Assembly: GCA_021736615.1 (NCBI GenBank)
Contig: JAIPFN010000127.1
Location: 1-15,418 of the forward strand
DNA: 15,418 bases
DNA from: Phycisphaerae bacterium
GTDB taxonomy: Bacteria > Planctomycetota > Phycisphaerae > Sedimentisphaerales > Anaerohalosphaeraceae
Reading direction: 5' to 3'
Made by a program: the position numbers and the translations under genes. The first letter of the stretch is position 1, and each line of letters starts with the position of its first letter. This document shows positions 1-15,418 of this stretch, piece by piece. The notes under the pieces are model-generated. The model had not been told where the DNA came from. It did not search any database and saw only the letters and a program-made list of their open reading frames with translations.

Positions 1-7
1 ATACAGC

Positions 8-23: not shown

Positions 24-63
24 CCTACGGTTCATATTGAAGTTACGAAACGAGGTTATCAAG

Positions 64-369
64 ATGGTACAATTTAATCCTAATGCCGGGGCGATCAGAC
101 CGAATATCGGTACAGGCGGCGCAACCGGTGCTCAAAAAGGAGCAGGCGGTGCTGACTTTGGCAAGATCGTTCAAAATCAGATATCCAATGTCAACGGTTT
201 ACAGGACGAGTCGGCATCGGCGGTGAAAGATCTGCTTGCCGGCAAGAGCCAGGATGTCAATTCAATGGTTGCCGCTGTCGCAAAAAGCGATATGAGCTTT
301 AAGCTGATGGTCGGTGTTCGTAATAAGATCATCGAAGCCTATAAAGAGACCATGCGAATGCAGATCTAA
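64..369 (+). CDS. fliE: Flagellar hook-basal body complex protein FliE
   Basis: FliE joins the MS ring to the proximal rod and is among the first proteins through the flagellar export gate. The start at 64 gives 101 residues, close to the usual ~100-110. It is preceded by GAGG at 52-55 with 8-base spacing. An in-frame upstream TTG/GTG extension from position 10 would add 18 residues that do not look like FliE. The N-terminal third is Gly/Ala-rich and low complexity. The C-terminal half carries the family signature: a helical segment reading SFKLMVGVRNKIIEAYKETM, then RMQI at the very end, matching the conserved 'S-F-x-L-M-x-x-V-R-N-K-x-x-E-A-Y-x-E-I-M-R-M-Q' pattern. It is the first gene of the fliE-F-G-H-I-J run. 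Confidence 0.95.
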   Translation: MVQFNPNAGAIRPNIGTGGATGAQKGAGGADFGKIVQNQISNVNGLQDESASAVKDLLAGKSQDVNSMVAAVAKSDMSFKLMVGVRNKIIEAYKETMRMQI

Positions 370-395
370 CCAAACTGCCCTATCGGTCAGTTTGG
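370..395. promoter_or_regulatory. Stem-loop directly after the fliE stop
   Basis: CCAAACTG (370-377) and CAGTTTGG (388-395) form a perfect 8-bp stem around a 10-base loop, starting at the base after the fliE stop. What follows is an AATTACT heptamer tract, not a T-run, so termination is doubtful. It may instead protect or process the mRNA 3' end and set the FliE:FliF ratio. An analogous but unrelated hairpin follows fliF. Confidence 0.45.
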
Positions 396-435
396 AATTA
401 CTAATTACTAATTGAGGATTCGGCCTTACGGCCGA
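396..435. repeat. Intergenic composite repeat, copy 1 (heptamers + TCGGCC hairpin)
   Basis: Heptamers AATTACT, AATTACT and a partial AATT fill 396-413. A six-base linker ending in GGAT follows, then a hairpin: TCGGCC (420-425), TTAC loop, GGCCGA (430-435). Aligned without gaps to 1988-2027, 34 of 40 bases are identical, and the differences fall in the seventh heptamer base, the linker and the hairpin loop. The 3' arm of the hairpin overlaps the GAGG (434-437) that serves fliF. Confidence 0.7.
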
Positions 436-444
436 GGTAATTTT

Positions 445-1944: not shown

Positions 1945-1953
1945 TATAGCAAA

Positions 1954-1968
1954 CTTGCCTATGGCAAG
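1954..1968. promoter_or_regulatory. Stem-loop after the fliF stop
   Basis: CTTGCC (1954-1959) and GGCAAG (1963-1968) pair around a TAT loop, 9 bases after the fliF stop. It is followed by the heptamer repeat, not by a T-run. Its position mirrors the hairpin after fliE, with a different sequence. Confidence 0.4.
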
Positions 1969-1973
1969 CTTGT

Positions 1974-2027
1974 AATTACGAATTACAAATTACAAATTAC
2001 GAATTTTGGATTCGGCCTAAAGGCCGA
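1974..2027. repeat. Intergenic composite repeat, copy 2 (heptamers + TCGGCC hairpin)
   Basis: Heptamers AATTACG, AATTACA, AATTACA, AATTACG and a partial AATT fill 1974-2005. The linker ends in GGAT. The hairpin is TCGGCC (2012-2017), TAAA loop, GGCCGA (2022-2027). It has the same architecture as the copy before fliF, with two more heptamer units. After both hairpins the sequence returns to TAATTT. It sits just ahead of the fliG start region, with AAAGGG at 2040-2045 as the likely SD. Confidence 0.7.
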
Positions 2028-2052
2028 TGCTAATTTGTTAAAGGGTTATTAA

Positions 2053-3048
2053 GTGGCTAAGTTAATTGGATTACGCAAGGCGGCGACGCTGATCATGGGG
2101 CTTGACGGGATTACTGCAATTGAATTGCTTAAGGGTCGCCCCCCTGAAGAGGTCCAGGAGATCGCGCTGATGCTGGCACAAGTTGACGCATCCGGCCAGA
2201 GAGACACTAAGGAAGAAGATAAGGTTGCGCGTGAGTTTTTAGATATACTGCAAAAGAGACAGGCCCAACGATTTAGTATACGTAAGTTTCTCAATGAAAT
2301 GCTTTCGTCTGTTCTTGGTTCCAGTAAGGCCGAAGAGATTAAAACTCAGATATTGAATACTACTCAGCAAAAGGATCCTTTTATCGATATTCGCTCGGCG
2401 ATGATCGACGAGCTTGTACTCGCTCTTAAGGGGCAGCATCCACAGACAATAGCTACGGTTATCGGAGAATTATCGACAGAAAAGAGCCAGGAGATTCTTG
2501 AGCTTCTTGATGAACATACCAGGGCTCAAGTGGTTTTCAGAATGACGAGCCTTGAGACTCTTCGTCCCGAAATGAAAAGACGTATCGCAGAGATGGTTGA
2601 TCAGCGGCTTGCTAAGTTTAAAGGGGAAGTACTTCCAGAAGGTAAAGAGCAGACGCTTCGACGACTTGCAGTCGTGCTTGGCGGTATGAAGACGCAAATG
2701 CGTGATGAACTGCTTGAGGCGCTCACCGAAAAGGATGAAGAGATCGGTGCGATGGTTCGTACTCTGATGATTACCTGGGAAGATATTCCCTCTATCGCAG
2801 ACCGCTCGCTTCAGGATTGTCTGCGAAGCGTGGAAGCGGGAAAAATGGCAGTTGCGCTGTTCGAAGCCGATCCGGATATCGCTTCAAAGTTACGCTCGAA
2901 TATTTCCGAACGTACCGTCGGTATGCTTGACGAAGAGATATCGCTTATGCAGGAACCGACAGAAGAAGAAGTTACAGAGGCGAGAGAAGAGATCGTACGA
3001 CCGCTTCGTGAAGCCAACGAGGCCGGTACATTGCGGATTGAAAAATAA
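2053..3048 (+). CDS. fliG: Flagellar motor switch protein FliG
   Basis: FliG is the rotor protein that receives torque from the MotA/B stator and sits on the MS ring. A GTG start with AAAGGG (2040-2045) seven bases upstream gives 331 residues, the normal family size. The N-terminal FliF-binding domain covers about 1-100 (LRKAATLIMGLD, then the RPPEEVQEIA helix). The middle domain carries the 'EHPQ' motif as QHPQ at 128-131, followed by TIATVIGEL. The C-terminal torque domain includes TWEDIPSIADRSLQDCL, the region with the conserved charged residues that face MotA, and ends in a charged helix. In canonical FliG the corresponding 'DDR' is Asp-Asp-Arg; here it reads Ala-Asp-Arg, so one acidic residue is substituted. 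Confidence 0.95.
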   Translation: MAKLIGLRKAATLIMGLDGITAIELLKGRPPEEVQEIALMLAQVDASGQRDTKEEDKVAREFLDILQKRQAQRFSIRKFLNEMLSSVLGSSKAEEIKTQILNTTQQKDPFIDIRSAMIDELVLALKGQHPQTIATVIGELSTEKSQEILELLDEHTRAQVVFRMTSLETLRPEMKRRIAEMVDQRLAKFKGEVLPEGKEQTLRRLAVVLGGMKTQMRDELLEALTEKDEEIGAMVRTLMITWEDIPSIADRSLQDCLRSVEAGKMAVALFEADPDIASKLRSNISERTVGMLDEEISLMQEPTEEEVTEAREEIVRPLREANEAGTLRIEK

Positions 3049-3080
3049 GAAGCGGACAGCGTTTTTTATTGGGAATTATA

Positions 3081-3647
3081 ATGTTAAATATGGTTTCAAT
3101 AATTTTGGACAGGCCTATTTCATCTGCACAGGTTTGCGGCGCAGAAGATAACCAGCAGGTTAAGCAGGCCGCTGCCGCGCAGGCGAAAGCGATGTTTGAC
3201 GCTGAAATGCAAAAGATCGAAGCAGAGAAGAAGCGTATCGTCCAGTTAATATCGGCAGTCGAGGCGGCAGCGATAGAGATCGACGATATCCGCAAGCGTA
3301 CGGTAACCGAAAACCAGAAGCAAATAGCTTTACTCGCAGTCGAGATCGCCAGAAAGATACTTACAAGCGAGATCGAAGAAGGCAGGTATGATATCGAGGC
3401 AATGATCGAAAAGGCTTTGCAGGCGTCTCCTTCCAGACAAGGTGCCGTAGTAAGACTAAGTCCAGCAGATCACGCGACCATCGAAAAGATAATGAAATCC
3501 GGAAACGGTAATTTTGAGAATATAAAGTTTGAAGCCGACAGTTCTATTTTGCCGGCTCAATGTTTTGTGGCGACATCAAAGGGTGTTGTCGAGTATTTCA
3601 TAGACGATCAACTGAACAGTATTAGCGAAACGCTCAGTTCAAACTGA
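3081..3647 (+). CDS. fliH: Flagellar assembly protein FliH
   Basis: FliH is the peripheral-stalk-like regulator of the FliI ATPase and tethers it to the export gate and C ring; it is homologous to V/F-type stator-stalk subunits. The ATG at 3081 (GGGA at 3071-3074 just upstream) gives 188 residues; an in-frame TTG four codons earlier is less likely. The first ~25 residues are a short N-terminal segment. Residues ~27-85 are an Ala/Glu/Lys-rich predicted coiled coil. The C-terminal globular domain contains LAVEIARKIL and, near the end, the typical 'S-x-L-P-x-x-C-x-V-x-T-x-x-G-V-V' stretch. It lies between fliG and fliI, the canonical place. Confidence 0.88.
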   Translation: MLNMVSIILDRPISSAQVCGAEDNQQVKQAAAAQAKAMFDAEMQKIEAEKKRIVQLISAVEAAAIEIDDIRKRTVTENQKQIALLAVEIARKILTSEIEEGRYDIEAMIEKALQASPSRQGAVVRLSPADHATIEKIMKSGNGNFENIKFEADSSILPAQCFVATSKGVVEYFIDDQLNSISETLSSN

Positions 3648-3707
3648 CGTAAGGGCATGTCAGTAATTATTCGTCTTTAGAGTTGGATACGGTACTGGAA
3701 TATATAA

Positions 3708-5084
3708 TTGGAAAATAACTCTGAAAATCCGGTTGACTTTAAGAGTCTTCACTGTCGTCTTTCGGACATGAATCTTTTGACGTGCAAGGGAACTATTACA
3801 AAAGTTGCCGGTCTTGTACTTGAGAGTAATGGGCCTAATATGGGCCTTGGCGAACTTTGCGGAATTCATCTTGATGACGGACGCAGGATTCTTGCCGAGG
3901 TTATCGGTTTCAGGAACGGTAATCTTGTGCTTTTGCCGCTTGAAGATGTTGCCGGTGTTCGACAAGGCAACATTGTCACTAGACGTGCAAAGCAGCGGGA
4001 TTTGACCGTAGGTGACGGGATCCTTGGCAGAGTAATCGACGGTCTCGGTCGCCCCATCGACGGAAAGGGTCCGTTGATCGGTAATGACAGCAGGCCGGTT
4101 GACAATATAAGTGTTCCACCGCTTACGCGTAAGATGATCACCGAACCGCTGTCTCTGGGCATACGTTCCATCGACGGTATGCTTACGTGCGGGCGCGGGC
4201 AGAGGATTGGCATCTTTGCCGGCAGCGGCGTCGGTAAAAGTGTTCTCCTCGGTGAGATAGCAAACTCCACCGAAGCTGAGATCAACGTAGTAGCACTGGT
4301 CGGTGAGCGCGGCCGTGAGGTTCGCGAGTTTATCGAAGAAGATCTTGGGCCAGAAGGGCTTGCCAGAAGTGTTATAATAGTTTCGACATCCGATTCGGCA
4401 CCGGTGCAAAGAGTTAGGGCTGCATTCGTGGCTGTTACTATTGCCGAGTATTTCCGGGATCAGAGCAAAGATGTTCTGTTTATGATGGATTCGCTGACGC
4501 GACTGGCACAGGCTCAACGCGAGATCGGTCTGGCGGCGGGCGAACCTCCGGCTAGCAAGGGATATTGTCCGAGTGTGTTTACATTACTGCCGCGTCTGAT
4601 AGAACGGCTTGGGTGCAGCGACAAAGGAAGTATAACTGGAATCCTTACGGTTTTGACCGAGGGCGACGACATGAACGACCCAGTTGCCGATTCTGCCCGG
4701 TCACTGCTTGACGGCCATTACGTTCTTTCAAGAAAGCTCGCAGAAAAGGGCCATTATCCGGCAGTCGATATTTTGCAGAGCATCAGCAGGCTGATGGGTG
4801 TTGTTGTTTCTCGTGAGCACCTGGCCGCGTCGAATAAGCTAAAAGAAATATACGCCGTCTATGCAGACGCTGAAGACCTGATCAATATCGGTGCTTATGT
4901 TTCCGGAAGTAACCGCCGCATCGACGGAGCTGTCGCGCTGATTGGCCAGATTAACACGTTTCTTATTCAGTCAGTTCGCGAGCGTTCAAGTTTTAATGAG
5001 ACGTCCAGGCGACTTATAGAGATCATCAATCAATGGGACTCTATTATTTCGGGTAATGTTGCAACGGCAGGTGCGGGCGTTTAA
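3708..5084 (+). CDS. fliI: Flagellum-specific ATPase FliI
   Basis: FliI is the cytoplasmic hexameric ATPase of the flagellar type III export apparatus, related to F1-beta. The frame has a stop immediately upstream, so TTG at 3708 (GGAA at 3697-3700 upstream) is the earliest start and gives 458 residues, the normal length. A later ATG at codon 21 would cut into the N-terminal helix. Seen in order: N-terminal beta-barrel to ~residue 95; DGLGRPIDGKG at 111-121; Walker A GSGVGKS at 172-178 with Lys177; the catalytic-Glu motif VGERGREVREF around 198-208; Walker B LFMMD at 257-261; then the FliI/YscN signature through AGEPPASKGYCPSVF. All catalytic residues are intact. Confidence 0.97.
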   Translation: MENNSENPVDFKSLHCRLSDMNLLTCKGTITKVAGLVLESNGPNMGLGELCGIHLDDGRRILAEVIGFRNGNLVLLPLEDVAGVRQGNIVTRRAKQRDLTVGDGILGRVIDGLGRPIDGKGPLIGNDSRPVDNISVPPLTRKMITEPLSLGIRSIDGMLTCGRGQRIGIFAGSGVGKSVLLGEIANSTEAEINVVALVGERGREVREFIEEDLGPEGLARSVIIVSTSDSAPVQRVRAAFVAVTIAEYFRDQSKDVLFMMDSLTRLAQAQREIGLAAGEPPASKGYCPSVFTLLPRLIERLGCSDKGSITGILTVLTEGDDMNDPVADSARSLLDGHYVLSRKLAEKGHYPAVDILQSISRLMGVVVSREHLAASNKLKEIYAVYADAEDLINIGAYVSGSNRRIDGAVALIGQINTFLIQSVRERSSFNETSRRLIEIINQWDSIISGNVATAGAGV

Positions 5085-5157
5085 TAAAGCGGCAGGTGCG
5101 AAGGTGACAAGTGACAGTTTTGAGAAATTGAAAGTCTTTTAAAGATTGAAGGTTTTT

Positions 5158-5610
5158 ATGGCGCGTTTTGTTTGGCGGTTACAGCGGGTACTGGACATCC
5201 GGGAAAAGGAAGAACTGGTATTAAGAAGTGAGCTTATGGCGTTAAGCGAACGTATGGTTGTGCTCAGGCAGGAAATAATGGTTATACGTGCACGAATTCA
5301 TTCGGCTCTTGAAGAGCTGGGTTATAAGGAGCCTTCAGAACGGTTGTCTTCGCAACAGCTTTTTATGAAGTATTCCGAATACAGTGAAATCGAGATAGAT
5401 TCGCTTAGATCGCAACTTTCCAACGTTGACAGGCAGCGAAAGGAAAAGATGAATGAGATACTTAAAAAACGCCAATCGATCAAGGCGTTAGAGAAACTAC
5501 GAGCCAGGGCGAAAGAAGAGTATTTGGCTGATTCGGCACATAAAGAGCAAAATGAACTAGACGAGTACACGAAAAACAAGTTCGGCAGACGTTCGGTTGT
5601 GAGTGCCTGA
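5158..5610 (+). CDS. fliJ: Flagellar export protein FliJ
   Basis: FliJ is the central-stalk-like (gamma-like) partner of the FliI hexamer and interacts with FlhA and export chaperones. ATG at 5158, with GAAGG at 5148-5152, gives 150 residues; the in-frame TTG at 5146 is rejected on SD grounds. The N-terminus reads FVWRLQRVLDIREKEE, matching the conserved 'F-x-F-R-L-x-x-V-L-x-x-R' FliJ opening. The rest is a predicted two-helix antiparallel coiled coil rich in Glu, Lys, Arg and Leu, with no membrane segment. Its place directly after fliI supports the call. Confidence 0.85.
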   Translation: MARFVWRLQRVLDIREKEELVLRSELMALSERMVVLRQEIMVIRARIHSALEELGYKEPSERLSSQQLFMKYSEYSEIEIDSLRSQLSNVDRQRKEKMNEILKKRQSIKALEKLRARAKEEYLADSAHKEQNELDEYTKNKFGRRSVVSA

Positions 5611-5645
5611 GGTCCGCTTGAAATCAGTACGATTGGAGTTTAATT

Positions 5646-6359
5646 ATGAATAAAAAACAAATAGTTATCATGGCAGGTATCGGACTAATCTGTTTTGCAT
5701 TGTCATTTACGGTGGGATTGTTTACCAGAAAAGCCAAAAATCAAGCTGCCGATGCCAATAAAACAGATACCCCGCAGGTTGTCGTATCTCTTAGCGAAAA
5801 TCCTGAACAAATTGACCAGACAGATACGTACGGAGTTGAGCCGGCAGGCAATTTCCGGGCTAAGCAGGTTAGTCTTGACCGGTCACTTAAGGTAAAACAA
5901 TTAGACAGCTTGATCGACGAGATGCATTCTAAACTGACCGAGTTTAAGGCAAAAGAAAAAATGCTCGCTGAAAAGGAAGGCCGAATTCAGATGTCGATGG
6001 AGGAACTACAGAAAGATGTTAAAGAAATGGAGGAGCTTCGGGTTAAGCTTGTCGCCCAGGTTTCGGCGATTAAGCAGCAACAGACAGTCCTTGACGAAAA
6101 ACTGATATCGATAGGTATAATTGAGAAGAATAATATTATCAAGACTGCTTTGGTATATGACAAGATGAAACCTCTGCCGGCTAGCGAGTCGATGATCAAT
6201 CTGACAAAATCAAATCAGTTGGACTACGCTGTAAAGATCGCCTATTACATGACGGAAAGAACGTCTGCGAATCTTCTGGCAGAGATTACTAAACAAGATC
6301 CTACGCTGGCAGCGAATATGATCGAGAAAATGAGATGGATCAAAGAAGCGAATGAGTAA
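5646..6359 (+). CDS. MotE/MgtE_N-like coiled-coil membrane protein
   Basis: 237 residues from ATG 5646, with GGAG at 5635-5638. Residues 5-27 form one N-terminal membrane anchor, residues ~28-70 a polar linker, and residues ~72-152 a predicted coiled coil rich in Glu, Lys and Met. The C-terminal ~70 residues contain YDKMKP and a 'DPTLAANMIEKM' helix that resembles the MgtE N-terminal helical repeats found in MotE-type flagellar proteins. MotE-family proteins help stabilise a stator partner or the cytoplasmic ring in other bacteria. Here the gene sits between fliJ and motA, consistent with a stator-linked or basal-body-linked role. The family call rests on architecture and position. FliK is the other protein often found here, but there is no hook-length-control signature. 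Confidence 0.6.
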   Translation: MNKKQIVIMAGIGLICFALSFTVGLFTRKAKNQAADANKTDTPQVVVSLSENPEQIDQTDTYGVEPAGNFRAKQVSLDRSLKVKQLDSLIDEMHSKLTEFKAKEKMLAEKEGRIQMSMEELQKDVKEMEELRVKLVAQVSAIKQQQTVLDEKLISIGIIEKNNIIKTALVYDKMKPLPASESMINLTKSNQLDYAVKIAYYMTERTSANLLAEITKQDPTLAANMIEKMRWIKEANE

Positions 6360-6434
6360 GGCAAACTAAGTTGTTTGTATTTTATTAATCAATAATTATA
6401 TTATTTCATTTTAGATGTCGGGAAAGTTTTTACG

Positions 6435-7205
6435 ATGGACATTGCGACAATTGTAGGAATATTGGCAGGTTTTGGTGTTATCATTGCGGCTATTCTCGCC
6501 GGTGGCGGTGCGTGGGCTTTCGTTGACATCCCATCAATACTAATTGTTGTAGGCGGAATGCTTTGCACTGTTTTGATTCATTTTTCATTGGGTCAGTTCC
6601 TGAGCATCTTTGGTATTGTAAAGAACACGTTTGTAAATAAAACGACCGCCGTGAGTGAACTTGTTCAGCAGATGGTTAATTATGCGGCAATCAATCGTAG
6701 AGACGGGGCCCTCGCTCTCGAGCAGGAGATGCGCAATGTTGATAACAAATTTCTCGGCAAAGGTTTACAGGCCCTTATCGACGGTCAGGAAGAAAATGAC
6801 ATCCGTGACCTGATGAATATGGAGACTATCTATATGCAGCAGCGTCATGCCGATGGTAAGAAGGTTCTGGAATTTATGGGTGCATCGGCTCCTGCGTTCG
6901 GTATGATCGGCACCTTGATCGGCTTGGTTAAGATGCTCCAGAACCTTTCATCTCCGGATACACTTGGTGCCGGTATGGCTATTGCGCTGCTTACTACGTT
7001 TTACGGTGCGGTTATTGCCAACCTGATTTTCATACCGCTTGCCGGTAAACTTGGCCAGTACTCAAAGAATGAATCGCTTGCGATGGAGATGACCATAGAG
7101 GGCATCTGCGCAATTGTAAAAGGCGACAGCCCTACAATAGTCAGGGAAAAGATGCAGGCATTTGTTTCGGATTGTAAGCGTGAGGAAGTTAAGATAAATA
7201 TTTAA
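6435..7205 (+). CDS. motA: Flagellar stator protein MotA (PomA-like)
   Basis: MotA surrounds the MotB dimer in the inner membrane and pushes on FliG as ions pass. The ATG at 6435 (GGAAAG at 6421-6426) gives 256 residues, the size of PomA/short MotA proteins. Four membrane segments are visible: ~4-24, ~30-52, ~146-168 and ~180-202. The long cytoplasmic loop between the second and third carries the charged FliG-contact region (RRDGALALEQEM). Conserved prolines are at 153 (GASAPAFG) and 201 (FIPLAGK). GMIGTLIGL and LLTTFYGA match PomA-class sequences, where equivalent threonines line the Na+ path. A sodium-driven stator is therefore possible, but these residues also occur in some proton-type proteins. 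It is followed by two motB genes and no second motA. Confidence 0.94.
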   Translation: MDIATIVGILAGFGVIIAAILAGGGAWAFVDIPSILIVVGGMLCTVLIHFSLGQFLSIFGIVKNTFVNKTTAVSELVQQMVNYAAINRRDGALALEQEMRNVDNKFLGKGLQALIDGQEENDIRDLMNMETIYMQQRHADGKKVLEFMGASAPAFGMIGTLIGLVKMLQNLSSPDTLGAGMAIALLTTFYGAVIANLIFIPLAGKLGQYSKNESLAMEMTIEGICAIVKGDSPTIVREKMQAFVSDCKREEVKINI

Positions 7206-7275
7206 CTCATGGTCCTTCAAAGTCGGATATTACATCTTTGGCTGTCAGTTATTAGTTTATATTTTGAGTTGTAAG

Positions 7276-7947
7276 ATGGCACAGAACAGAAAAAAAGTTG
7301 AACCGGAAGAAACTGCCGGTGCCCCCGAGTGGATGGTTACTTTTAGTGACTGCATGACTTTGCTGCTTACTTTTTTTGTTCTACTTTTAAGTTTTTCAAG
7401 CTTTGACGATGCCGCGATGAGCAGAGTTCAGAAATCAATCGGAATGGGCATGCCGGCAAAAGCCAGCATTACAGGAAACATGAACACTTCGCTTGCGGAA
7501 ATAAAAACCATCAAGAAAGTTGATATCATTACGGAAGGAAGCAAAACTCCTACGCCAACCGATATTGCACTTGGAAATATTGCAAAGCAACCGCGTCTTA
7601 CGGACTATCAACGCCAGAAAGTCTTCTCCATAGATTCAGACAAAATATTCGTCGGAAAATCCAGCGATGTTATCAACCCGAAGAACAAGCAAATTCTGGA
7701 TAATATGACAGTTTTCCTTAAGGCCAAACCGAGCAGAGTCGTCGTCAGTGAATTTGACCCTAAAACCCCTGACCATTCCGACAAGTTGGGCCTTAATAGA
7801 GCTTGGGCGATAATGAATTATTTTGTAAAATCAAATATTGATGCCTCAAACTTTAGCATAACCGGCTCATCAATGCTTACCAGGAACGACAATATCGATA
7901 AACGTCAGATCGTTATTACGCTGCTTGAGGAAGACGTCTACAAATGA
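7276..7947 (+). CDS. motB: Flagellar stator protein MotB, first paralogue
   Basis: MotB-type stator subunit that anchors the motor to peptidoglycan and carries the ion-binding aspartate. ATG at 7276 gives 223 residues; a TTG four codons upstream is possible, and the SD (GAG at 7266-7268) is weak. Residues ~18-41 are the single membrane helix, with the ion-binding Asp at 25 in VTFSDCMTLLLTFFVLLLS. A charged stretch just after it resembles the plug region. An OmpA-like periplasmic domain lies at ~115-220, with NRAWAIMNYF (Arg175) in the conserved 'R-A-x-x-V' position and DKRQIVITLLE near the end. The usual GHTD-type peptidoglycan motif is replaced by SEFD, so binding may be altered. The stop overlaps the next motB start in ATGA. 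Confidence 0.88.
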   Translation: MAQNRKKVEPEETAGAPEWMVTFSDCMTLLLTFFVLLLSFSSFDDAAMSRVQKSIGMGMPAKASITGNMNTSLAEIKTIKKVDIITEGSKTPTPTDIALGNIAKQPRLTDYQRQKVFSIDSDKIFVGKSSDVINPKNKQILDNMTVFLKAKPSRVVVSEFDPKTPDHSDKLGLNRAWAIMNYFVKSNIDASNFSITGSSMLTRNDNIDKRQIVITLLEEDVYK

Positions 7948-8669
7948 GTAGAAACATAGAACCTCCAAAAGAAGAAAAGGCAAAGGTTCCAACCTACATC
8001 GTCACATTCTCCGACATGATCACTCTTCTGCTTACATTCTTTGTTCTTCTTTTATCAATGGCCACTGAACAGATTGACGATGCTAAGTTCGAAAAAGGTC
8101 GTGACGCACTCATTGATGCAATGTCAAATGTCGGGATCAAAGGTATTTCATTTAGTACAAAGCCTACAATGGGTAAAGTAGAAAGTACGCTTCATCCGGT
8201 CGAGAATAACGAAAAATTCACACAAGAAGAAGCTTTGGATGCAACAGAGGAGGTGGTTCGTCGAATATTCAAGGAACTTGAGAAGCAAATGAAGATAACA
8301 CCTGCTCAGATTACAGGCAAGTCTCCGGATTTCCGGCCAACCAGCATTAAATTTAAAAAAGATGGAGCGGTCTTAAATGAGTCTTCGATGAATTATCTGA
8401 AAAAGTTTTCCTTTAATCTACAAGAGAATATTGGCAACCAGAATTTAACTGTATATGTTGTAGGTTTGGCGCAGGATGAGAAGTCTCTTCAAAAGCAGTG
8501 CCTTGTTTCGGCAAAGCGGGCCCAGGTAGCAGCTGACTTTCTCAGGGAGTCTTTGCCTGAAGGTCTCCGCTGGAAGATTCACAGTTGGGGAGCCGGTCCC
8601 GGGGGACAGTGGAAAACCAACGGCCCGGTTGAAGAAAGTCAGGTTGTAATAGCCGTACTTGGTAATTAA
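7944..8669 (+). CDS. Flagellar stator protein MotB, second paralogue
   Basis: A second, distinct MotB of 241 residues, translationally coupled to the first by a 4-base ATGA overlap. Its single membrane helix at ~17-39 reads VTFSDMITLLLTFFVLLLS, nearly identical to the first copy, with the ion-binding Asp at 24. The following ATEQIDDAKFEKGRDAL resembles a plug helix. The periplasmic linker is longer (~60-130). The OmpA-like domain at ~130-240 has FKKDGAVLNESS and SAKRAQVAADFL (Arg192), but GLAQ where GHTD is expected. Outside the membrane helix the two paralogues share little by eye, so the duplication is old or the two have specialised. Only one MotA gene is present. Confidence 0.85.
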   Translation: MSRNIEPPKEEKAKVPTYIVTFSDMITLLLTFFVLLLSMATEQIDDAKFEKGRDALIDAMSNVGIKGISFSTKPTMGKVESTLHPVENNEKFTQEEALDATEEVVRRIFKELEKQMKITPAQITGKSPDFRPTSIKFKKDGAVLNESSMNYLKKFSFNLQENIGNQNLTVYVVGLAQDEKSLQKQCLVSAKRAQVAADFLRESLPEGLRWKIHSWGAGPGGQWKTNGPVEESQVVIAVLGN

Positions 8670-8681
8670 GCACCAGTAAGT

Positions 8682-8714
8682 TCAGGCCGCCAAAAGTGCG
8701 ATTTTGAGCCTGAG
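8682..8714 (+). terminator. Candidate terminator after the stator genes
   Basis: Nested inverted repeats start 12 bases after the second motB stop: TCAGGC (8682-8687) pairs with GCCTGA (8708-8713). Inside them CAAAA (8691-8695) pairs with TTTTG (8702-8706) around a six-base loop. The bases after it, TTCTTGCTTT, are moderately T-rich. It would end the motA-motB transcript ahead of a new unit starting at fliO. The internal bulge and imperfect T-run make this tentative. Confidence 0.4.
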
Positions 8715-8749
8715 TTCTTGCTTTGTGTAAAGATATTATACGTTGTTTT

Positions 8750-8818
8750 GGGGTTTGAGTGGGGATTCCGCGCCTTTTGGGGGATTATTCAATTCTTATG
8801 GGCATTTGGGGTTTTGGG
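8750..8818 (+). other. G-run cluster in the motB-fliO gap
   Basis: Six runs of three to five G (8750-8753, 8761-8764, 8779-8783, 8800-8802, 8808-8811, 8816-8818) occur in 69 bases on the + strand, a composition unlike the rest of the window. Loops of 4-16 bases would permit a long-loop G-quadruplex. The runs also coincide with Trp-Gly and Gly codons of the short hydrophobic frame, which is an alternative cause. Confidence 0.35.
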
Positions 8819-8831
8819 TATGCCATTTGCA
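8816..8831 (+). promoter_or_regulatory. Candidate sigma-54 promoter for fliO-flhB
   Basis: GGGTATGCCATTTGCA fits the sigma-54 consensus TGGCAC-G-N4-TTGCA. The invariant GG (8817-8818) and GC (8829-8830) are exactly 10 bases apart, the whole TTGCA -12 element is present, and A and G of the -24 side match; three positions deviate. Transcription would begin near 8841, leaving a leader of about 46 bases before fliO. Sigma-54 control of flagellar genes is common in bacteria. This is the only such match I noticed in the intergenic regions of the window. Confidence 0.5.
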
Positions 8832-8887
8832 TTCATTAATACTGATTAAGTTCAGTTTGACCAATTAATGACTGTGAAAGTTGAAGA

Positions 8888-9277
8888 ATGCTAAAAGTTA
8901 AAAACACTCTTGTTCTAGGCGGTATGATAACGGCATGGCCGGTCCTTTGTCTTGGCATAACTGACCCCAATAGTCAATTCGAAGTCCCCGACAACGGCGA
9001 TTTCTTCAGTACTTTGATAACATCGATCTTTTTTATTGTTGTTCTCGGTGGAATCGCACTTTATCTTTCTAAGAAGTTCATGCCAAAACTTCGCCCTACG
9101 TCCGGCCAAGACATAAATATTCGCGAGACGATCCACCTGGGCCCTAACAAGACGATGCATCTTGTAGAAGTCGGCAAAAAGAAGTTCCTTGTCGGGAGCA
9201 CCTCTGAAAATATTACGATGCTTGCCGATGTAACCGAAATACTTGACGCTGAAGCCGGCGATGAAGAGATTATTTGA
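8888..9277 (+). CDS. fliO: Flagellar biosynthesis protein FliO
   Basis: FliO is the membrane assembly factor that helps build the FliP-FliQ-FliR export-gate core. ATG 8888 gives 129 residues, within family range, though the SD is weak (GAAG just upstream). An N-terminal hydrophobic segment (residues ~7-23) may be a signal peptide. The main membrane helix is ~40-62, followed by the basic SKKFMPKLRP. The cytoplasmic domain carries the FliO pattern 'I-R-E-T-I-x-L-G-P-x-K-x-M-H-L-V-E-V' and KKFLVGSTSENITMLADV. It is the first gene after the 218-bp gap and is followed by fliP after seven bases. Confidence 0.9.
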   Translation: MLKVKNTLVLGGMITAWPVLCLGITDPNSQFEVPDNGDFFSTLITSIFFIVVLGGIALYLSKKFMPKLRPTSGQDINIRETIHLGPNKTMHLVEVGKKKFLVGSTSENITMLADVTEILDAEAGDEEII

Positions 9278-9284
9278 GGACGTC

Positions 9285-10100
9285 ATGCCGATTAGAAAAT
9301 TTTTAGCGATCCTGGTTTGTTTCTGGCTGCTGATCCCGGCGGGTTTGGTTCATGCCGCAGGTGAAGACGATGCGGCGAAACAGAAAGCAGGGTCACTACC
9401 CGGTGTCGGCGAGATACTCGACGTGATCGGCAAGGCGACGACGCCAAATGATACAGCCGACGAGAAACCCGAATGGTCGGGTCCGATCAAACTGGTTATT
9501 GTTTTCACCGCACTTGCGATTATCCCAAGCCTTTTGATCATGATGACGTCGTTTACGCGGATCATTATCGTTTTATCATTCGCCAGGCGTGCGCTCGGTA
9601 CGCAGACTATTCCTCCGACAACCGCGATCATCGGGCTTGCGATGTTTCTTACGCTGTTTACGATGGCTCCGACATTTTCCGAGATAAACGAAAAGGCCAT
9701 CGGCCCGTATCTTGCCGATAAGGCAGATTTTAATACGGCACTGGCGACGGCCGGTGAGACTATCAAAGGGTTTATGCTCAAACAGGTTCGGCCTGCCGAT
9801 CTTACGCTTTTTGTTCAGATGTCCAGGATCGAAAAGCCGGCAAGCCCTCAAGCGGTTCCGCTTTACGTGACGATCCCTGCGTTTATTATTAGTGAATTTC
9901 GTACTGCTTTTGAGATGGGATGCCTTTTGTTTATCCCGTTTTTGCTGATCGATCTTGTTACTGCGAGTATTCTTTTGAGTGCGGGCATGATGATGCTTCC
10001 GCCGGTTATGATATCGCTTCCATTTAAGCTGATATTGTTTATTCTTGTCGACGGATGGTCGCTGCTTGCCAAGAGTTTGAGTTTGAGTTTTGGTGGATAG
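9285..10100 (+). CDS. fliP: Flagellar biosynthesis protein FliP
   Basis: FliP forms the pentameric core of the export-gate pore with FliQ and FliR. I chose ATG 9285, giving 271 residues, because GAGGA (9276-9280) precedes it and the product then opens with a signal peptide (basic MPIRK, hydrophobic core, VHA-A cleavage-like site near residue 24), as FliP normally does. Earlier in-frame starts at 9243 or 9261 lie inside fliO and would bury the signal. Family motifs: TSFTRIIIVLSFARRALGTQ at 88-107; the FliP signature PAFIISEFRTAFEMG at 198-212; and ASILLSAGMMMLPPVMIS around 227-244. Four membrane helices follow the cleaved region. Confidence 0.96.
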   Translation: MPIRKFLAILVCFWLLIPAGLVHAAGEDDAAKQKAGSLPGVGEILDVIGKATTPNDTADEKPEWSGPIKLVIVFTALAIIPSLLIMMTSFTRIIIVLSFARRALGTQTIPPTTAIIGLAMFLTLFTMAPTFSEINEKAIGPYLADKADFNTALATAGETIKGFMLKQVRPADLTLFVQMSRIEKPASPQAVPLYVTIPAFIISEFRTAFEMGCLLFIPFLLIDLVTASILLSAGMMMLPPVMISLPFKLILFILVDGWSLLAKSLSLSFGG

Positions 10101-10114
10101 TTGGAGATACTGTT

Positions 10115-10384
10115 ATGGATGCTAATTGGGTTTTGTTTCTTGGGCGCCACACTATTGAGACGGCGTTTCTGGTTTCGGCTCCGATACTTATTGTTTGTAT
10201 TGTAGTCGGTCTCCTGGTTTCTCTGTTCCAGGCGGTCACCTCGCTTAAGGACATGACATTGTCTATGGTACCAAAACTCTTTGCCGTCGGAATTACAACG
10301 GTAATATTCGGCGGGTGGATGCTTGAAGTAGTCTTAAAGTTCACCAATGAGATATTTTTCTATATTCAGAAATACGGTTCATAA
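10115..10384 (+). CDS. fliQ: Flagellar biosynthesis protein FliQ
   Basis: Export-gate subunit that wraps around the FliP-FliR core. ATG 10115, with GGAG at 10103-10106, gives 89 residues, exactly the family size. There are two membrane hairpin helices (~17-40 and ~53-76). Between them lies FQAVTSLKDMTLSMVPK, matching the conserved 'Q-A-x-T-x-x-x-E/D-x-T-L-x-x-x-P-K' motif of FliQ/SctS. An open frame extending upstream overlaps the end of fliP and is rejected. Confidence 0.95.
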   Translation: MDANWVLFLGRHTIETAFLVSAPILIVCIVVGLLVSLFQAVTSLKDMTLSMVPKLFAVGITTVIFGGWMLEVVLKFTNEIFFYIQKYGS

Positions 10385-10386
10385 GT

Positions 10387-11136
10387 ATGGATTTTTTTGA
10401 AGGTAGAATCCTTGCCTTTGTGATAATTCTTACGAGGGTATCGGCGTTTATGATGTCCGCACCGCTGTTTAGCTGGGTTGCGATCCCGGTAAGAATAAGA
10501 GTCGCGGTCGCATTTTTGACAACTATATTTTTTGCCATGATAACTCCGGCAGCCGAGTCCGTCAATTCGATCATCCAGGTTTTTCTTTTGCTCGCCAATG
10601 AAGTGGTATACGGTATAGCATTGGGGCTTATAACGACAATGCTGTACTCAGCTGTGAAAATTAGCGGCAGAATAGCAGAGCGGCAAATGGGCATGGCGAT
10701 GGCCGAAGTGATGGACCCGTTTACCGGCGAAGGGGCCCAGCCGATTGGTATGACCATGGAGATACTTTTTATAATGCTGCTGCTTTCAGTAAACGCGCAT
10801 CACTTTTTTTTAAAGACAATAGCAACGAGTTTCGAGGTTTTTGCACCTGGAACCACTCCTGAATTGATAGTGCTTGTCAAGGGGATAATAGCGTCGGGTT
10901 CGCTGATGCTTACGATGGCTCTTAAACTTGCCGTACCGACAATGGGGGTATTTATGGCCCTGACTGTCGTACTTGGAATACTTGCGAGAATCGCGCCGGA
11001 GATGAATATATTCTTCCTGAGCTTTCCGGTCAGGATTGGGCTTGGACTTATAATCATAACTTATCTGGTGCCGTTTATTAATAATTATACAGGCGAGTTT
11101 GCTAAAATGCTTACCAGATTATTGCCGCTTGGCTAA
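10387..11136 (+). CDS. fliR: Flagellar biosynthesis protein FliR
   Basis: Single-copy subunit that completes the FliP5-Q4-R1 export pore. It starts two bases after fliQ ends, with no clear SD, so translation is probably coupled. At 249 residues it is slightly short but within range. It has about six hydrophobic segments. Family landmarks: LTRVSAFMMSAPLFS near the N-terminus; AERQMGMAMAEVMDP followed by the central gate-loop region; VNAHHFFLKTI; and LARIAPEMNIFFLSFPVRI near the C-terminus. Confidence 0.95.
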   Translation: MDFFEGRILAFVIILTRVSAFMMSAPLFSWVAIPVRIRVAVAFLTTIFFAMITPAAESVNSIIQVFLLLANEVVYGIALGLITTMLYSAVKISGRIAERQMGMAMAEVMDPFTGEGAQPIGMTMEILFIMLLLSVNAHHFFLKTIATSFEVFAPGTTPELIVLVKGIIASGSLMLTMALKLAVPTMGVFMALTVVLGILARIAPEMNIFFLSFPVRIGLGLIIITYLVPFINNYTGEFAKMLTRLLPLG

Positions 11137-11197
11137 CTCTTAAGTGATAAATATTATTATTGGGCAATGCGACCTTAAATTGAAAGTAGAGTTTTAG

Positions 11198-12283
11198 ATG
11201 GCTGAGAAACCTGCCGGCGAACGTACCGAAAAAGCGTCCCCGCGACGTATACGCAAAACGCGTCAAAAGGGACAGGTTCCGCATAGCCAGGAACTCCCTT
11301 CGGTATTGTCGCTTGCTACACTGCTGGTTGTATGCATGGCAATGGGGCCAAAAGTCTTCGCCTGGTTCAGGATGCAGATTACCGAAAGTATGTCATTGAA
11401 CAGTGAGTTTATGACTACTCCAGATGCATTTGTCGGCTTTTTCTCTTCAAAGATTATTGAAACAACAGTTATCGCGGCTCCGTTTTTTGTCGCACTTATT
11501 ATTGCAGGTGCCGCCGGCTCAATTTTTGTCGGCGGAATGACCTGGTCAATGAATCCTCTTAAGTGGAAACTCAGTGCAATATCGCCAATAAAAGGTGTGA
11601 AGAATTTATTTTCCACGAGCTCTGTCATGAACCTTTTGTTGTCGATTGCAAAAATCGTCCTTATTACTGCAATAGTATGGTTTTATTTCCGTGACAAACT
11701 CCCTTCGTTCATAAGCCTTCAATGGTTATGGCCGACAGATATCCCGAGTGCCATCGCAGGTCCTATTGTAGTAGTTGTAATTCGTATCTGTATAGCTCTG
11801 ATCGCAATAGCACTCATCGACATTGCGTACCAGAAGTGGAAGTATATGAAAGATATGAAGATGACTAAACAGGAGGTTAAAGAAGAGCACAAAGAAACCG
11901 ACGGCTCTCCTGAAGTTAAAAGCAAAATCCGTCAAAAACAGATGGCGATAGCGACTAAGCGGATGCTTGAAGAAGTACCAAAGGCCGATGTGATCCTGGT
12001 TAACCCGACCCATGTCGCGGTAGCTATCAGATACGACTCGGCTGTTTCGGATGCACCGGTTGTCAAAGCCAAAGGCGGCGACCATATGTGTGAAAAGATC
12101 AAAGAGATCGCCAGGGCTTACGGTGTGCCAATCGTCCGAAAACCTAAGCTGGCAAGAACCATTTTCAAGACCGTCAAAATCGACCAGCCAATCCCGGAAA
12201 ACCTGTTTGTCGCTGTCGCCGAGGTTCTTGCAATGATCTACAGAATCAGGCAGAGAAAACGAATGGGAAAGGCAAATGTATAA
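11198..12283 (+). CDS. flhB: Flagellar biosynthesis protein FlhB
   Basis: FlhB is the export-gate component that switches specificity from rod/hook to filament substrates by self-cleavage. ATG 11198 (GTAGAG upstream) gives 361 residues. The N-terminus AEKPAGERTEKASPRRIRKTRQKG is canonical in pattern: 'E-K-T-E-x-A-T-P-x-R-x-x-x-A-R-x-x-G'. Four membrane helices lie at about 34-52, 88-112, 142-164 and 187-210. The charged linker precedes the cleavage motif N269-P270-T271-H272 (VNPTHVAVAIRYD), which is intact, so autocleavage between Asn and Pro is expected. The C-terminal domain ends normally with a basic tail. A 61-bp gap separates it from fliR. Confidence 0.96.
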   Translation: MAEKPAGERTEKASPRRIRKTRQKGQVPHSQELPSVLSLATLLVVCMAMGPKVFAWFRMQITESMSLNSEFMTTPDAFVGFFSSKIIETTVIAAPFFVALIIAGAAGSIFVGGMTWSMNPLKWKLSAISPIKGVKNLFSTSSVMNLLLSIAKIVLITAIVWFYFRDKLPSFISLQWLWPTDIPSAIAGPIVVVVIRICIALIAIALIDIAYQKWKYMKDMKMTKQEVKEEHKETDGSPEVKSKIRQKQMAIATKRMLEEVPKADVILVNPTHVAVAIRYDSAVSDAPVVKAKGGDHMCEKIKEIARAYGVPIVRKPKLARTIFKTVKIDQPIPENLFVAVAEVLAMIYRIRQRKRMGKANV

Positions 12284-12313
12284 TGCCTAATGACTGAAAC
12301 CCCTTAACAAAAT

Positions 12314-13924
12314 ATGTCGGAAATCGTAACTTATAAAAATGATTCTACTGTTGAGGCTAAGGCACGTCGTGCTTTGGAGCCTTCCATGCTTGCGCGCGGG
12401 CAGGTTTTATTCGTTGCCTGTTTAGTGGTAATCATTGCCGCAATTGCTATCCCGGTCCCGGCGAGTTTTCTGTGGCTTCTTGACGCAGGGTGGATACTCA
12501 CGGTTTGTTTGTCGGCTGCGATACTGATGCTTGCTATGATGGCGAAGAACCTGTCAGAGCTTTCCGGATTTGCATCATTTGTCGTATCGATCACGTTGAT
12601 CCGGCTTGGGTTTGCCGTCGCTTCCGCAAAGTTGATAATAATTCAACAGTCGGCTGGAAGTTTAATCGAAAAAACCGGCTCGCTTTTGATGCTGGAAAAC
12701 ATTTCGCTATACGCGGTCGTTATACCGGTTATGGTACTTGCCGGTGTCGTTATGATTTTCATGGCGACCGGCAGCGTGATTAAAAAAACGTCTAAATATG
12801 CGACCGACACATTGCCCTTTAAATACATCAGTGCCGAAGCCGACCTCAACGCTTCGGTAATAAGCCAGTCGCAAGCGGCAGAAATTAAAGATAAGATCAA
12901 AACCGAGGCGAAGTTTTATGTTTCAATGGCAACGGCAGGGAAATTCCTGCGATTTGACGCGGTGATCAATGTCCTGATCGTTGGCTGTTCGGCACTTGGG
13001 ATATTAAAGTCACATGCGGCGATGGGAGTAAGCGGTGGAGTCGCCGGCACTTCATTCGGATACGGTTCTGTAGAAGTCGGCATAATGCTTTCGGTCGGGC
13101 TTTGGGCGATGGTGTTTTTACCGGCAATCGTCCTTGCGTTTTCGAGCAGTTCGGTAGTCAACAAGAATAACCTTCATGCCGGCAGCGTCGCCAAAGCCTC
13201 AATCACCGGCGAAAATACTAATAACACCGAAATAATCGACGCGGAGGACGACGAGTTTGAACTGCTTAACCCTGATTTCGCGGATGTTTCCAGCCGGATC
13301 AAAAATGGAAGAAGACTTGACATTGCCGATGATTTTGAGGACAATTCAGATAATCGCCTTGAACCGGCAAACGAAAATATTATTGACAAAATCACTGAGG
13401 GTGAAAACATGTATGCTGATATTGCAGAGTTGGTCGTTAGCCAATGCCATAACGGACCGGTGACAGCACTTCTTTGTTCCGAGAGCGTCGAGCTGCTGCC
13501 GGTAACTACGGCAGTTAAGATCGCCATAGAACTGACAGATCGAGGAAAAAAATGTTTGCTGATAGATGCTGATACGACAAGAGACGCTGTCTATAAAGTA
13601 TTCGACATAGAACCGAATTTAGCGGCTGGACCGGTTGACTGCTGCATAGACAATCTTTCAATATGGGCAGTCAGCAATCAGAGCAAAACAATCGGCAGCG
13701 ATCTTGCCGCTAAGATCAGCGAAGTCGGCGGCGATTACGATTGCGTTATGATCTATGCCCCGCGGGTCGAGGACTCAAACTACTATGGCAAACTTGCCGG
13801 TCTTGTAAGTGTTGCCGGGTTTGCCATAGGCAATCCTGTTAGTGAAGAAAAGTATATCCTGCAGTTAAAGGGTCTGCTTGCCTCGGTGGATTGCAAGTGC
13901 ATCGTCAGAGAAAGCCTGGCTTAA
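12314..13924 (+). CDS. FlhA-like membrane domain fused to a degenerate BY-kinase/MinD-type domain
   Basis: One uninterrupted frame of 536 residues at the place where flhA is expected. Residues ~30-285 match the FlhA membrane half: LLDAGWILTVCLS and SFVVSITLIRLGFAVAS parallel the FlhA 'LDLLLALNIxLS' and 'FPSILLxTTLFRLALNVAS'. The FHIPEP segment is recognisable at 160-183 (DTLPFKYISAEADLNAS), followed by the 'E-A-x-F-Y-x-x-M-x-x-A-x-K-F-x-R-x-D' stretch. After the last helix (~257-281) FlhA's large cytosolic domain is absent. Residues ~286-365 are an acidic linker. Residues ~366-536 resemble CpsD-type tyrosine kinases: GKKCLLIDAD (411-420), DTTRDAVYKVF (420-430). The P-loop Lys is replaced (VELLPVTTA, Pro396) and the Walker B Asp by Tyr481. 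I infer a non-catalytic FlhA paralogue; canonical FlhA should be elsewhere. Start is uncertain: ATG 12386 has a better SD (GGAG 12376-12379) and fits the FlhA opening. Confidence 0.8.
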   Translation: MSEIVTYKNDSTVEAKARRALEPSMLARGQVLFVACLVVIIAAIAIPVPASFLWLLDAGWILTVCLSAAILMLAMMAKNLSELSGFASFVVSITLIRLGFAVASAKLIIIQQSAGSLIEKTGSLLMLENISLYAVVIPVMVLAGVVMIFMATGSVIKKTSKYATDTLPFKYISAEADLNASVISQSQAAEIKDKIKTEAKFYVSMATAGKFLRFDAVINVLIVGCSALGILKSHAAMGVSGGVAGTSFGYGSVEVGIMLSVGLWAMVFLPAIVLAFSSSSVVNKNNLHAGSVAKASITGENTNNTEIIDAEDDEFELLNPDFADVSSRIKNGRRLDIADDFEDNSDNRLEPANENIIDKITEGENMYADIAELVVSQCHNGPVTALLCSESVELLPVTTAVKIAIELTDRGKKCLLIDADTTRDAVYKVFDIEPNLAAGPVDCCIDNLSIWAVSNQSKTIGSDLAAKISEVGGDYDCVMIYAPRVEDSNYYGKLAGLVSVAGFAIGNPVSEEKYILQLKGLLASVDCKCIVRESLA

Positions 13925-15418
13925 CTATTCATCTGAAGCATACTCAATGATGAGAGTTGCTGCTGCAGGATTGTCATGGTTTTTTCAAGACGAGCAAACT
14001 GTGCGGTTAGACGTGCCTCTTTTTTCGTCAGCCTTTTCTCCTCCAGTGCAATTCTGTCGTCGATAGCTTCCATGGCTTTTTTACCGCTTTCCGTATCAAT
14101 GGCAAGGTACCCCCTGGGTACCATATTTTCGTCGACAGTAGTGTCAAGGATGTCTTTGAGGCGATCTTTGAGTGCTCCTGCAAAACCCTGTTGAACATGA
14201 ATTGTCGCCGTATACGTCTGGCTAGCCGAAAGAGAGTCCATGTCAATACTGATTTGCAAATCGCGTTCCGGGTACCACTCATCGCTATCCGCGTTAAGTC
14301 TTCCCTTTATTGTTACCAGGCCATTATCATCCCAGGTGTCGGCGGGCTGATAGTGCCATTGAGTTTCCGATGAATGCTTAATTCTTACCTGTAAGATATC
14401 TCCGGCACCATCGGTATCGACTTCAACTTCATAGTCGCCGACCTCCGTGTATTGGCTGGAACCGGTGAAATTGATTATATTCTTGTCTGTCCCGCTGCTC
14501 TTGCCGGCATTGAAGGCACCTATCAGTGCCGCCACTGCCTCATAATCATTCTCAATCGCCTCGTCGAGTTTGGCTTCGTCGAGTTTAAGCGTTCCAAGGC
14601 TGTCCTGGTCGCTGCTGAAATCCAGGCCGATCTCCCATGCGTAGATATATTCTTCTTCGCCTTCTGTAAACCCAACCGCCGGTGTTCTGATCCCTGCTCT
14701 CATGATGGATTGAACGACCTTTGTTGTGTAGTTTGAGATCAGGACGCCTGCTTTCTTTGTCTCTTCGTCGTATGCTGATTTTTCCTTGATGAAGGATATT
14801 GTCGAATTATATGAGCTTACCAGACCCTTGAGCTTGGATTTTAAAGAATTTAAATCTTTGTTAAGGCTGATCTGAACTGTTCCAACATCGTAAAGCTCAA
14901 TAGATACGCCCGGCAGAACGCCCGAGAATGAATTTGAACTCCTGCTTATCCAGGCCTTTGCCGTTTCTTCCATGGAATAATTTGATGCACCCGACTGGTC
15001 GAGTAAAGCCGGGTCTATAGAAATCATCGACGCATCGCCTATCGAAGAAGCAAATGTAAATTTAACATCGCCTGCGTCGAGAGAACCCGAGACGGTTATG
15101 TCACCAGCGTTTACGTTTGACAGGCCTTCGAGAGCGGCCTGTATCACGGCGTTAGAAGCGTCAACGGCAATGTTACCTGTTGTCTGTCCGTCGTAAGTCA
15201 GCGTATATGTTCCCGTAGCTGGCGATGTTACCGCAGAAAGTGTCTGTACTTCATTTGCCGGATAACCGTCGACTTTTATCTGACTGTCCTGGGCGGCCTG
15301 GGTTCTGATGAAATCTCCGGCATTGAGAATATTGGAAAGCAACCCGCCTTCTGTTCCACCGTCAGCTGTGGCATCGCTGAAAGTCGGCAGAACCAGCGCA
15401 GCAGGATCACCGCCGCCT
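13921..15418 (-). CDS. fliD: Flagellar filament cap protein FliD (HAP2), 5' end outside the window
   Basis: FliD caps the growing filament and folds flagellin into it. The frame stays open to the window edge (at least 498 residues), so the start is missing; the internal TTG at 15342 is not a real start. Order from the N-terminal side: a hook-IN-like 'I-K-V-D-G' edge; a ~80-residue beta-rich module (about 14995-15237); then SSNSFSGVLPGVSIELY, the FliD 'S-S-N-T-x-x-x-x-x-P-G-V-T-x-x-L' motif; helices KGLVSSYNSTISFIKEK; LGTLKLDEAKLDEAIENDYEAVAALI, typical FliD_C; an additional beta-rich stretch (residues ~290-390 counted from 15342); and a terminal coiled coil ALEEKRLTKKEARLTAQFAR matching 'RIxxLExRLxxxExRLxxQFxxLE'. 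No leader or chaperone gene is visible. Confidence 0.9.
   Translation of the reverse strand, partial: GGGDPAALVLPTFSDATADGGTEGGLLSNILNAGDFIRTQAAQDSQIKVDGYPANEVQTLSAVTSPATGTYTLTYDGQTTGNIAVDASNAVIQAALEGLSNVNAGDITVSGSLDAGDVKFTFASSIGDASMISIDPALLDQSGASNYSMEETAKAWISRSSNSFSGVLPGVSIELYDVGTVQISLNKDLNSLKSKLKGLVSSYNSTISFIKEKSAYDEETKKAGVLISNYTTKVVQSIMRAGIRTPAVGFTEGEEEYIYAWEIGLDFSSDQDSLGTLKLDEAKLDEAIENDYEAVAALIGAFNAGKSSGTDKNIINFTGSSQYTEVGDYEVEVDTDGAGDILQVRIKHSSETQWHYQPADTWDDNGLVTIKGRLNADSDEWYPERDLQISIDMDSLSASQTYTATIHVQQGFAGALKDRLKDILDTTVDENMVPRGYLAIDTESGKKAMEAIDDRIALEEKRLTKKEARLTAQFARLEKTMTILQQQLSSLSMLQMNS

Follow-up and report, generated by a model that had tools for sequence, protein, structure and literature searches.

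An FlhA-like membrane domain fused to a pseudokinase domain of the BY-kinase type in a flagellar operon of one planctomycete order

What is encoded by the long open frame that lies between flhB and fliD in a planctomycete flagellar operon? The question is raised by a DNA stretch of 15,418 nucleotides from a Phycisphaerae bacterium (GenBank assembly GCA_021736615.1, contig JAIPFN010000127.1, positions 1 to 15,418 of the forward strand), referred to here in its whole length as the window. A preliminary description made from the letters of the window had read one frame as an FlhA-like half, an acidic linker, and a half resembling bacterial tyrosine kinases (BY-kinases). This reading is borne out: the frame is unbroken, starts with ATG, and both halves find their relatives in family and structure databases, as detailed below. 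We propose, with about even confidence, that the product (hereafter the fusion) is a non-conducting FlhA-like subunit of the flagellar export gate, whose pseudokinase part would act as a scaffold and adjust gate assembly or gating. The gene is made up of the following parts (TM, transmembrane helix).

12314..13924, plus strand: fusion gene, FlhA-like membrane domain, linker and BY-pseudokinase domain, 536 amino acids (aa)
12398..13168, plus strand: FlhA-like membrane domain, residues 29-285, counterpart of TM1-TM6, without TM7-8
12761..12928, plus strand: FHIPEP-type cytoplasmic segment in the TM4-TM5 interval, about residues 150-205, from the FlhA alignment; long helices in the structure model
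13169..13396, plus strand: acidic linker, residues 286-361, of low model confidence and weakly constrained except for its motif
13259..13279, plus strand: linker motif ELLNPDF, residues 316-322
13397..13921, plus strand: BY-pseudokinase domain, residues 362-536, from profile and structure matches
13496..13507, plus strand: degenerate Walker A, LPVT, residues 395-398
13556..13582, plus strand: retained Walker A' region, LLIDADTTR, residues 415-423
13745..13762, plus strand: degenerate Walker B, VMIYAP, residues 478-483

Residues 40-292 of the fusion match the Pfam family FHIPEP (PF00771) with 102.4 bits against a gathering cut-off of 29.1 (E 3e-29), and the top sequence match in the PDB, over query residues 29-283, is an FlhA chain (E 9.3e-23). 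Judged by sequence, the membrane half is homologous to FlhA, in agreement with the preliminary description. The FHIPEP match spans profile positions 1-244 of 657 only, so that the cytosolic FlhA-C ring domain is absent, and the score against the FlhA equivalog TIGR01398 is 104.2 bits where its cut-off demands 772.1. No hydrophobic stretch of 19 residues (mean above 1.2) is present in the linker of any of the 46 aligned fusion rows, as compared to values of 1.8-2.1 in three FlhA controls. These profiles indicate an FlhA truncated after TM6, with TM7-8 gone as well as the docking domain. In the Salmonella FlhA structure the ring core is formed by TM2-6, while TM1 and TM7-8 contact neighbouring subunits (PMC13308203); thus the fusion would keep roughly the ring core and TM1. 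The structure search gave no fold evidence for the membrane half, the C-terminal half occupying the match lists.

Residue conservation was compared between 45 fusion rows and 10 FlhA rows. The proton-path residue Asp249 is present in 10 out of 10 FlhA rows, while none of the 45 fusions carries Asp or Glu there or within 3 columns. At the position of E. coli residue 137, where FlhA has N or Q, all 45 fusions have neither, nor is either found one column beside. Q254 is retained in 9 out of 45 fusions. D45 is kept in 44, K163 in 38, D170 in 37, and R85 in 33 of the 45; at R94 a basic residue (R or K) occurs in 40 and at D208 an acidic one (D or E) in 28, and the fusion of the window retains both R85 and D208. 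According to PMC3139655, Asp208 and Asp249 of Salmonella FlhA are required for export, their mutants are dominant negative, and the D208A and D249A proteins seem to enter the gate; Asn137 and Gln254 are described as essential in a 2026 preprint (PMC13308203). The membrane half looks inactive and is predicted not to conduct protons, a refinement of the first reading.

The C-terminal half of the window protein alone gives weak matches (AAA_31, 19.4 bits with a cut-off of 27; eps_fam, E 6e-4). When a profile was built from 28 of the 46 rows (the remaining 18 include several of the most divergent), the top known structure was 4jlv, CapA1/CapB1 (E 1.5e-11), followed by BceF, VpsO, and CapB, all BY-kinases, ahead of Soj and MinD. 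TIGR01007 is matched by 28 out of 28 C-domains at E <=0.1 (best 8.5e-12) and AAA_31 by 27, although the window C-domain does not reach the curated TIGR01007 cut-off (20.2 bits vs. 108.05). Structure matches also place BY-kinases ahead of FlhG, MinD, and ParA by Z, though the fold is common to all. We concluded that the C-half is a BY-kinase-type pseudo-ATPase domain, as first described; an origin from FlhG is less likely, since BY-kinases score better by profile and by structure.

The catalytic residues of this domain are lost throughout the 46 fusion rows. The Walker A lysine is absent from every row (P in 39, G in 6, and A in 1 at the aligned position) and the Walker B Asp is replaced by Tyr in every row; an active ATPase or kinase was rejected because both Walker A and Walker B are lost. 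The Tyr-rich C-terminal tail is absent as well, the last 20 residues holding zero Tyr in 34 rows and one in 12. The Walker A' region is kept (D418 in 46/46, D420 in 42/46), and three residues, D418, R423, and F430, never vary. That positions outside catalysis are so strictly conserved suggests a binding function for the pseudokinase domain. Both domains are under purifying selection. The ratio of nonsynonymous to synonymous substitution rates (dN/dS, NG86) between the window and a related locus, L001, is 0.16 over the whole fusion protein; the two domains taken separately give 0.11 and 0.10 (boundaries accurate to about 4 codons), the linker gives 0.73, and flhB gives 0.12.

A search of 5.8 billion proteins found the same architecture in 15 further proteins of 505-542 aa with 86 to 24% identity, ordinary FlhA being next in the list; the family protein P0004 carries the public name "hypothetical protein". 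The fusion occurs in at least 7 out of 392 genomes of a phylum sample, in 25 out of 397 genomes of a class sample (E <=1e-52), and in 32 out of 161 genomes of one order (same limit), and the fusion genomes of the two wider samples all fall within the 32. A domain search added seven genomes with weaker members (G761, G635, G682, G638, G608, G796, and G647), which together with G472 brings the total to 40 out of 161. Some of these fusions are incomplete: G796 and G647 show linker and C-half only, at contig ends, G472 shows the N-half only at a contig edge, and the G801 fusion begins inside the membrane half. The G608 membrane half is unrecognised by Pfam FHIPEP, yet it matches the family profile. 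The G608 gene (L214:3824-5071, minus strand), directly after flhB, is also the shortest complete fusion frame read (416 aa); by eye much of its FHIPEP segment is missing. Queries with free-standing relatives of the pseudokinase domain (E <=1e-20) match 36 out of 397 class-sample genomes including the fusions, all of them in the order's domain-search list, and within this sampling the family looks confined to one planctomycete order, probably Sedimentisphaerales. Misassembly, which the preliminary description had named as a possible refutation, or a chance open frame joining two genes is excluded by the same architecture on many independent contigs (the 15 further proteins and 40 genomes above), and we regard an artefact as next to impossible.

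Is the fusion the FlhA of these cells? A planctomycete metagenome-assembled genome, MohnsGC08_bin187, which holds one fusion with the same operon (locus L001), also carries, some 32 kb from the fusion, a complete FlhA (817 bits). Such a separate FlhA match is found in 30 of the 32 genomes first detected (of these, one is divided between two contigs, one is a fragment of 134 positions, and one is cut by a contig end), the two without it, G775 and G706, being short-contig assemblies of 2.3 and 1.8 Mb. In the relatives, therefore, the fusion is a paralogue and not the cell's own FlhA, and its role as a replacement was rejected. The early suggestion of an FlhA paralogue without the docking ring holds to this extent, with the amendment that TM7-8 are missing too.

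The place of the gene is also conserved. The neighbours in the window are as follows.

11198..12283, plus strand: flhB, Pfam-confirmed; the fusion starts 30 bases downstream
13921..15417, minus strand: fliD, convergent and running off the window, Pfam-confirmed; its stop overlaps the fusion stop
9243..11136, plus strand: putative fliP, fliQ, and fliR, upstream, named by gene order

The usual arrangement in relatives is likewise flhB-fusion, then convergent fliD. Among the 32 genomes, flhB is the next gene upstream (<=361 bases) in 28 out of 31 assessable loci, which agrees with the expectation that the architecture would recur beside flhB; the exceptions are G389, G143, and G462, and the flhB frame of G758 is short. 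The next gene downstream is fliD in 27 out of 29 loci (exceptions G641 and G462). In the added genomes flhB is adjacent in G761, G635, G608, and G472, and fliD is next in G761 and G796, with none seen downstream in G608, G647, and G638.

A membrane-domain tree (LG+G4; 24 fusion rows of 29 chosen from 45, five long fusion rows omitted) unites the fusions in one group (support 100/100) and the fusions plus 37 FlhA of the order in one clade (100/100), outside of which fall the FlhA of E. coli, of other planctomycetes, and of two genomes that branch early within the order. The tree gives a single origin of the fusion as the sister of the order's own FlhA, with the caution that fusion branches are long (the stem measures 1.1 changes per column). 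The two early-branching genomes read fliP-fliQ-fliR-flhB-flhA, and in the main clade flhA comes after fliN in seven contexts (fliN being a putative name). The earlier statement that the fusion lies in the flhA position is thus correct in the evolutionary sense, because flhA itself follows flhB in the two early-branching genomes. The simplest history is that an flhA copy took or kept the old flhA site after flhB and was then lost several times. FlhF scores above its curated cut-off in 11 out of 161 genomes of the order and in none of the 40 fusion genomes; the FlhF-bearing G587 and G058 branch early on the tree. A link between FlhF loss and the presence of the fusion was rejected, since the rest of the order is without FlhF with or without the fusion. 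The two FlhF-bearing genomes inspected retain flhB and flhA together.

Where did the pseudokinase domain come from? Besides the fusions, the C-domain profile matches free-standing proteins in 37 out of 161 order genomes, 25 with the fusion and 12 without. Their frames have 201-305 residues, with a single one of 452, and many score as close to the profile as some fusions do. In 12 that were aligned, the Walker A lysine is absent from all, and the Walker B Asp gives way to N (6 proteins), Y (5), or S (1). Visual inspection shows a single hydrophobic stretch near the N-terminus in most of them. In five out of six contexts inspected the gene follows that of a long acidic protein, the sixth site being hidden by the frame filter. 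The acidic partners resemble one another in a C-terminal segment and in an N-terminus of the ADIL type that recurs among them; of three scanned with Pfam, two gave no match and one gave weak coiled-coil-type matches only. Examples are as follows.

L198:9773-10456, minus strand: free-standing BY-pseudokinase, also in L199-L209
L198:10463-11812, minus strand: acidic partner
L199:9777-12380, minus strand: acidic partner
L206:10061-11218, minus strand: acidic partner

At least six of the 12 fusion-less genomes with a free-standing copy (G501, G511, G554, G778, G752, and G452) have no FHIPEP match in the assembly, and the free-standing family therefore probably has a non-flagellar role. A C-domain tree, which omits L053 (cut by a contig end) and the near-copies of the window protein P0002, P0003, P0005, P0006, and P0007, places fused and free pseudokinases in one group against nine true BY-kinases (100/100); the fusions group together with moderate support (82/85). 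This suggests one fusion event from a pre-existing pseudokinase family, though the reverse direction is possible. To the first reading it adds that the pseudokinase is part of a wider family with free-standing members.

How might such a protein work? In the mechanism we propose, flhA would have been duplicated in one planctomycete order, and one copy would have shed TM7-8 together with the cytosolic docking ring and acquired the BY-pseudokinase domain common to the order-specific free-standing family. We infer that its product would be located at the export gate, in the company of FlhB and the true FlhA, entering the FlhA ring now and then as a protomer that does not conduct, or lying beside that ring, and that the pseudokinase would act as a protein-binding scaffold setting assembly, stoichiometry, or export timing without ATP use or proton conduction. 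A non-conducting scaffold subunit is the most economical reading because dead Salmonella protomers seem to enter the gate and because EcpK-type pseudokinases have been proposed to work by binding an oligomeric membrane protein (PMC12004946). A bolder form of it, which we hold only tentatively, is that the FlhA ring is a hetero-oligomer in which one or a few dead protomers neither conduct protons nor dock substrates and the pseudokinase fixes gate asymmetry or timing; the fusion might then be likened, just as tentatively, to a natural dominant-negative subunit maintained by selection.

Several observations weigh against a gate subunit. The fusion is without TM7-8, which in Salmonella pack on the neighbouring subunit (PMC13308203), so that its fit into the FlhA ring is not guaranteed. 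It is found in 40 out of 161 genomes as compared to FHIPEP matches in 128 out of 161 (a count including some contig fragments and the fusions themselves), and being missing from most FlhA-bearing genomes it is dispensable for having a flagellum. In eight fusion-less contexts flhB lies directly beside convergent fliD; in fusion-less G759 no fliD is seen within 7 kb, and the remaining fusion-less contexts are cut short. The G462 fusion sits away from flhB and fliD, and in G682 no flhB is seen within 4 kb upstream of the fusion.

The main rival, which we consider possible but doubtful, is a tether: the FlhA-like half would do no more than anchor the protein to the gate or its vicinity (or form a separate ring), and the pseudokinase would link the flagellar base to an envelope or polarity scaffold, perhaps the acidic partner. 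The acidic gene adjoining the free-standing relative in five out of six contexts argues for it, as does the occurrence of that relative in genomes without an FHIPEP match (e.g., G501, G511, G554, and G778), from which the domain probably has a non-flagellar role that could be carried to the flagellum by a fusion. The lack of FlhF above cut-off in the 40 fusion genomes (11 out of 161 in the order) would also fit, but main-clade genomes without the fusion lack it likewise, and no clear free-standing copy is seen in 15 of the 40 (G753, G745, and G599 among them). It is unlikely, in our estimate, that the fusion is an assembly or export-order factor acting transiently on FlhB and FlhA, its ELLNPDF motif mimicking the FlhA linker that binds a neighbouring FlhA-C. 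The motif E[LIV]LNP is present in 34 out of 46 fusion rows and scores highest at the linker/FlhA-C junction in 19 out of 29 FlhA from fusion genomes, the Salmonella FlhA linker contacts the neighbouring subunit and governs export switching (PMC8166844), and the adjacent fliD encodes a filament-type substrate. Against this, 12 out of 46 fusion rows are without the motif, among 19 FlhA from genomes without the fusion the junction ranks first in just 2, its rank in the two early-branching ones is 29th and 33rd, and the FlhA rows are all related, so that the rank result amounts to about one observation. Searching FlhA with a hidden Markov model of the linker gave no significant match (any hit in 4 out of 48, all with negative scores, one at the junction). 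The resemblance between ELLNPDF and the beginning of the FlhA-C domain of the order's FlhA is suggestive only. Finally, the fusion could be a domesticated duplicate without a present link to the gate, retained by operon inertia or as a general membrane protein. Its fast evolution on the FlhA tree (the long stem noted above) and its repeated absence would agree with this, but its conserved place in the flagellar operon and the purifying selection on both domains make it quite improbable.

The fusion was also compared with known systems. It shares with FlhA/SctV the TM1-6 region and FHIPEP segment, with D45, K163, and D170 mostly kept and a position as sister clade to the order's own FlhA, and differs in the lack of TM7-8, the FlhA-C docking ring, Asp249, and the amide at position 137. 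With BY-kinases (CpsD/CapB, the Wzc C-terminal domain, TIGR01007) it has in common the fold and the Walker A' region, but it lacks the Walker A lysine and the Tyr-rich tail and has Tyr for the Walker B Asp. As in Wzc, a membrane part is followed by a cytosolic BY-kinase domain; unlike in Wzc, the membrane part is FlhA-like and not Wzz-like. The BY pseudokinases EcpK and HfsB (PMC12004946) are similar in having the BY-kinase fold without catalytic residues, whereas EcpK stands alone, is also without Walker A', and acts in polysaccharide synthesis, and the fusion has an FlhA half in a flagellar operon. The MinD-like flagellar ATPase FlhG/FleN shares the general deviant P-loop fold and the flagellar link. 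No FlhA membrane domain fused to another domain was found in a literature search covering titles and abstract openings of open-licence full texts. Each half is of a known kind; the combination, its pairing with an intact FlhA, and its conservation across the order appear undescribed.

In the usual description FlhA forms a uniform nonamer, by which proton flow is coupled to export. An FlhA-like subunit that naturally lacks both proton path and docking ring would permit testing directly whether all nine protomers must conduct, and also how ring stoichiometry is set. In a recent preprint (PMC13308203), one FlhA protomer breaks the ninefold symmetry and sequential use of protomers is proposed. If our reading is true, a BY pseudokinase would have passed from a role as membrane scaffold to one in a type III secretion apparatus.

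Upstream of the fusion, the window presumably reads fliE-fliF-fliG-fliH-fliI-fliJ-motE-like-motA-motB-motB-fliO-fliP-fliQ-fliR-flhB, in which flhB is Pfam-confirmed and the remaining genes are named by their order and sequence. Within this run a tandem pair of motB-like genes follows a single putative motA at 7264-8669. The motB-like pair is also present in most of the relatives' fusion operons that extend that far.
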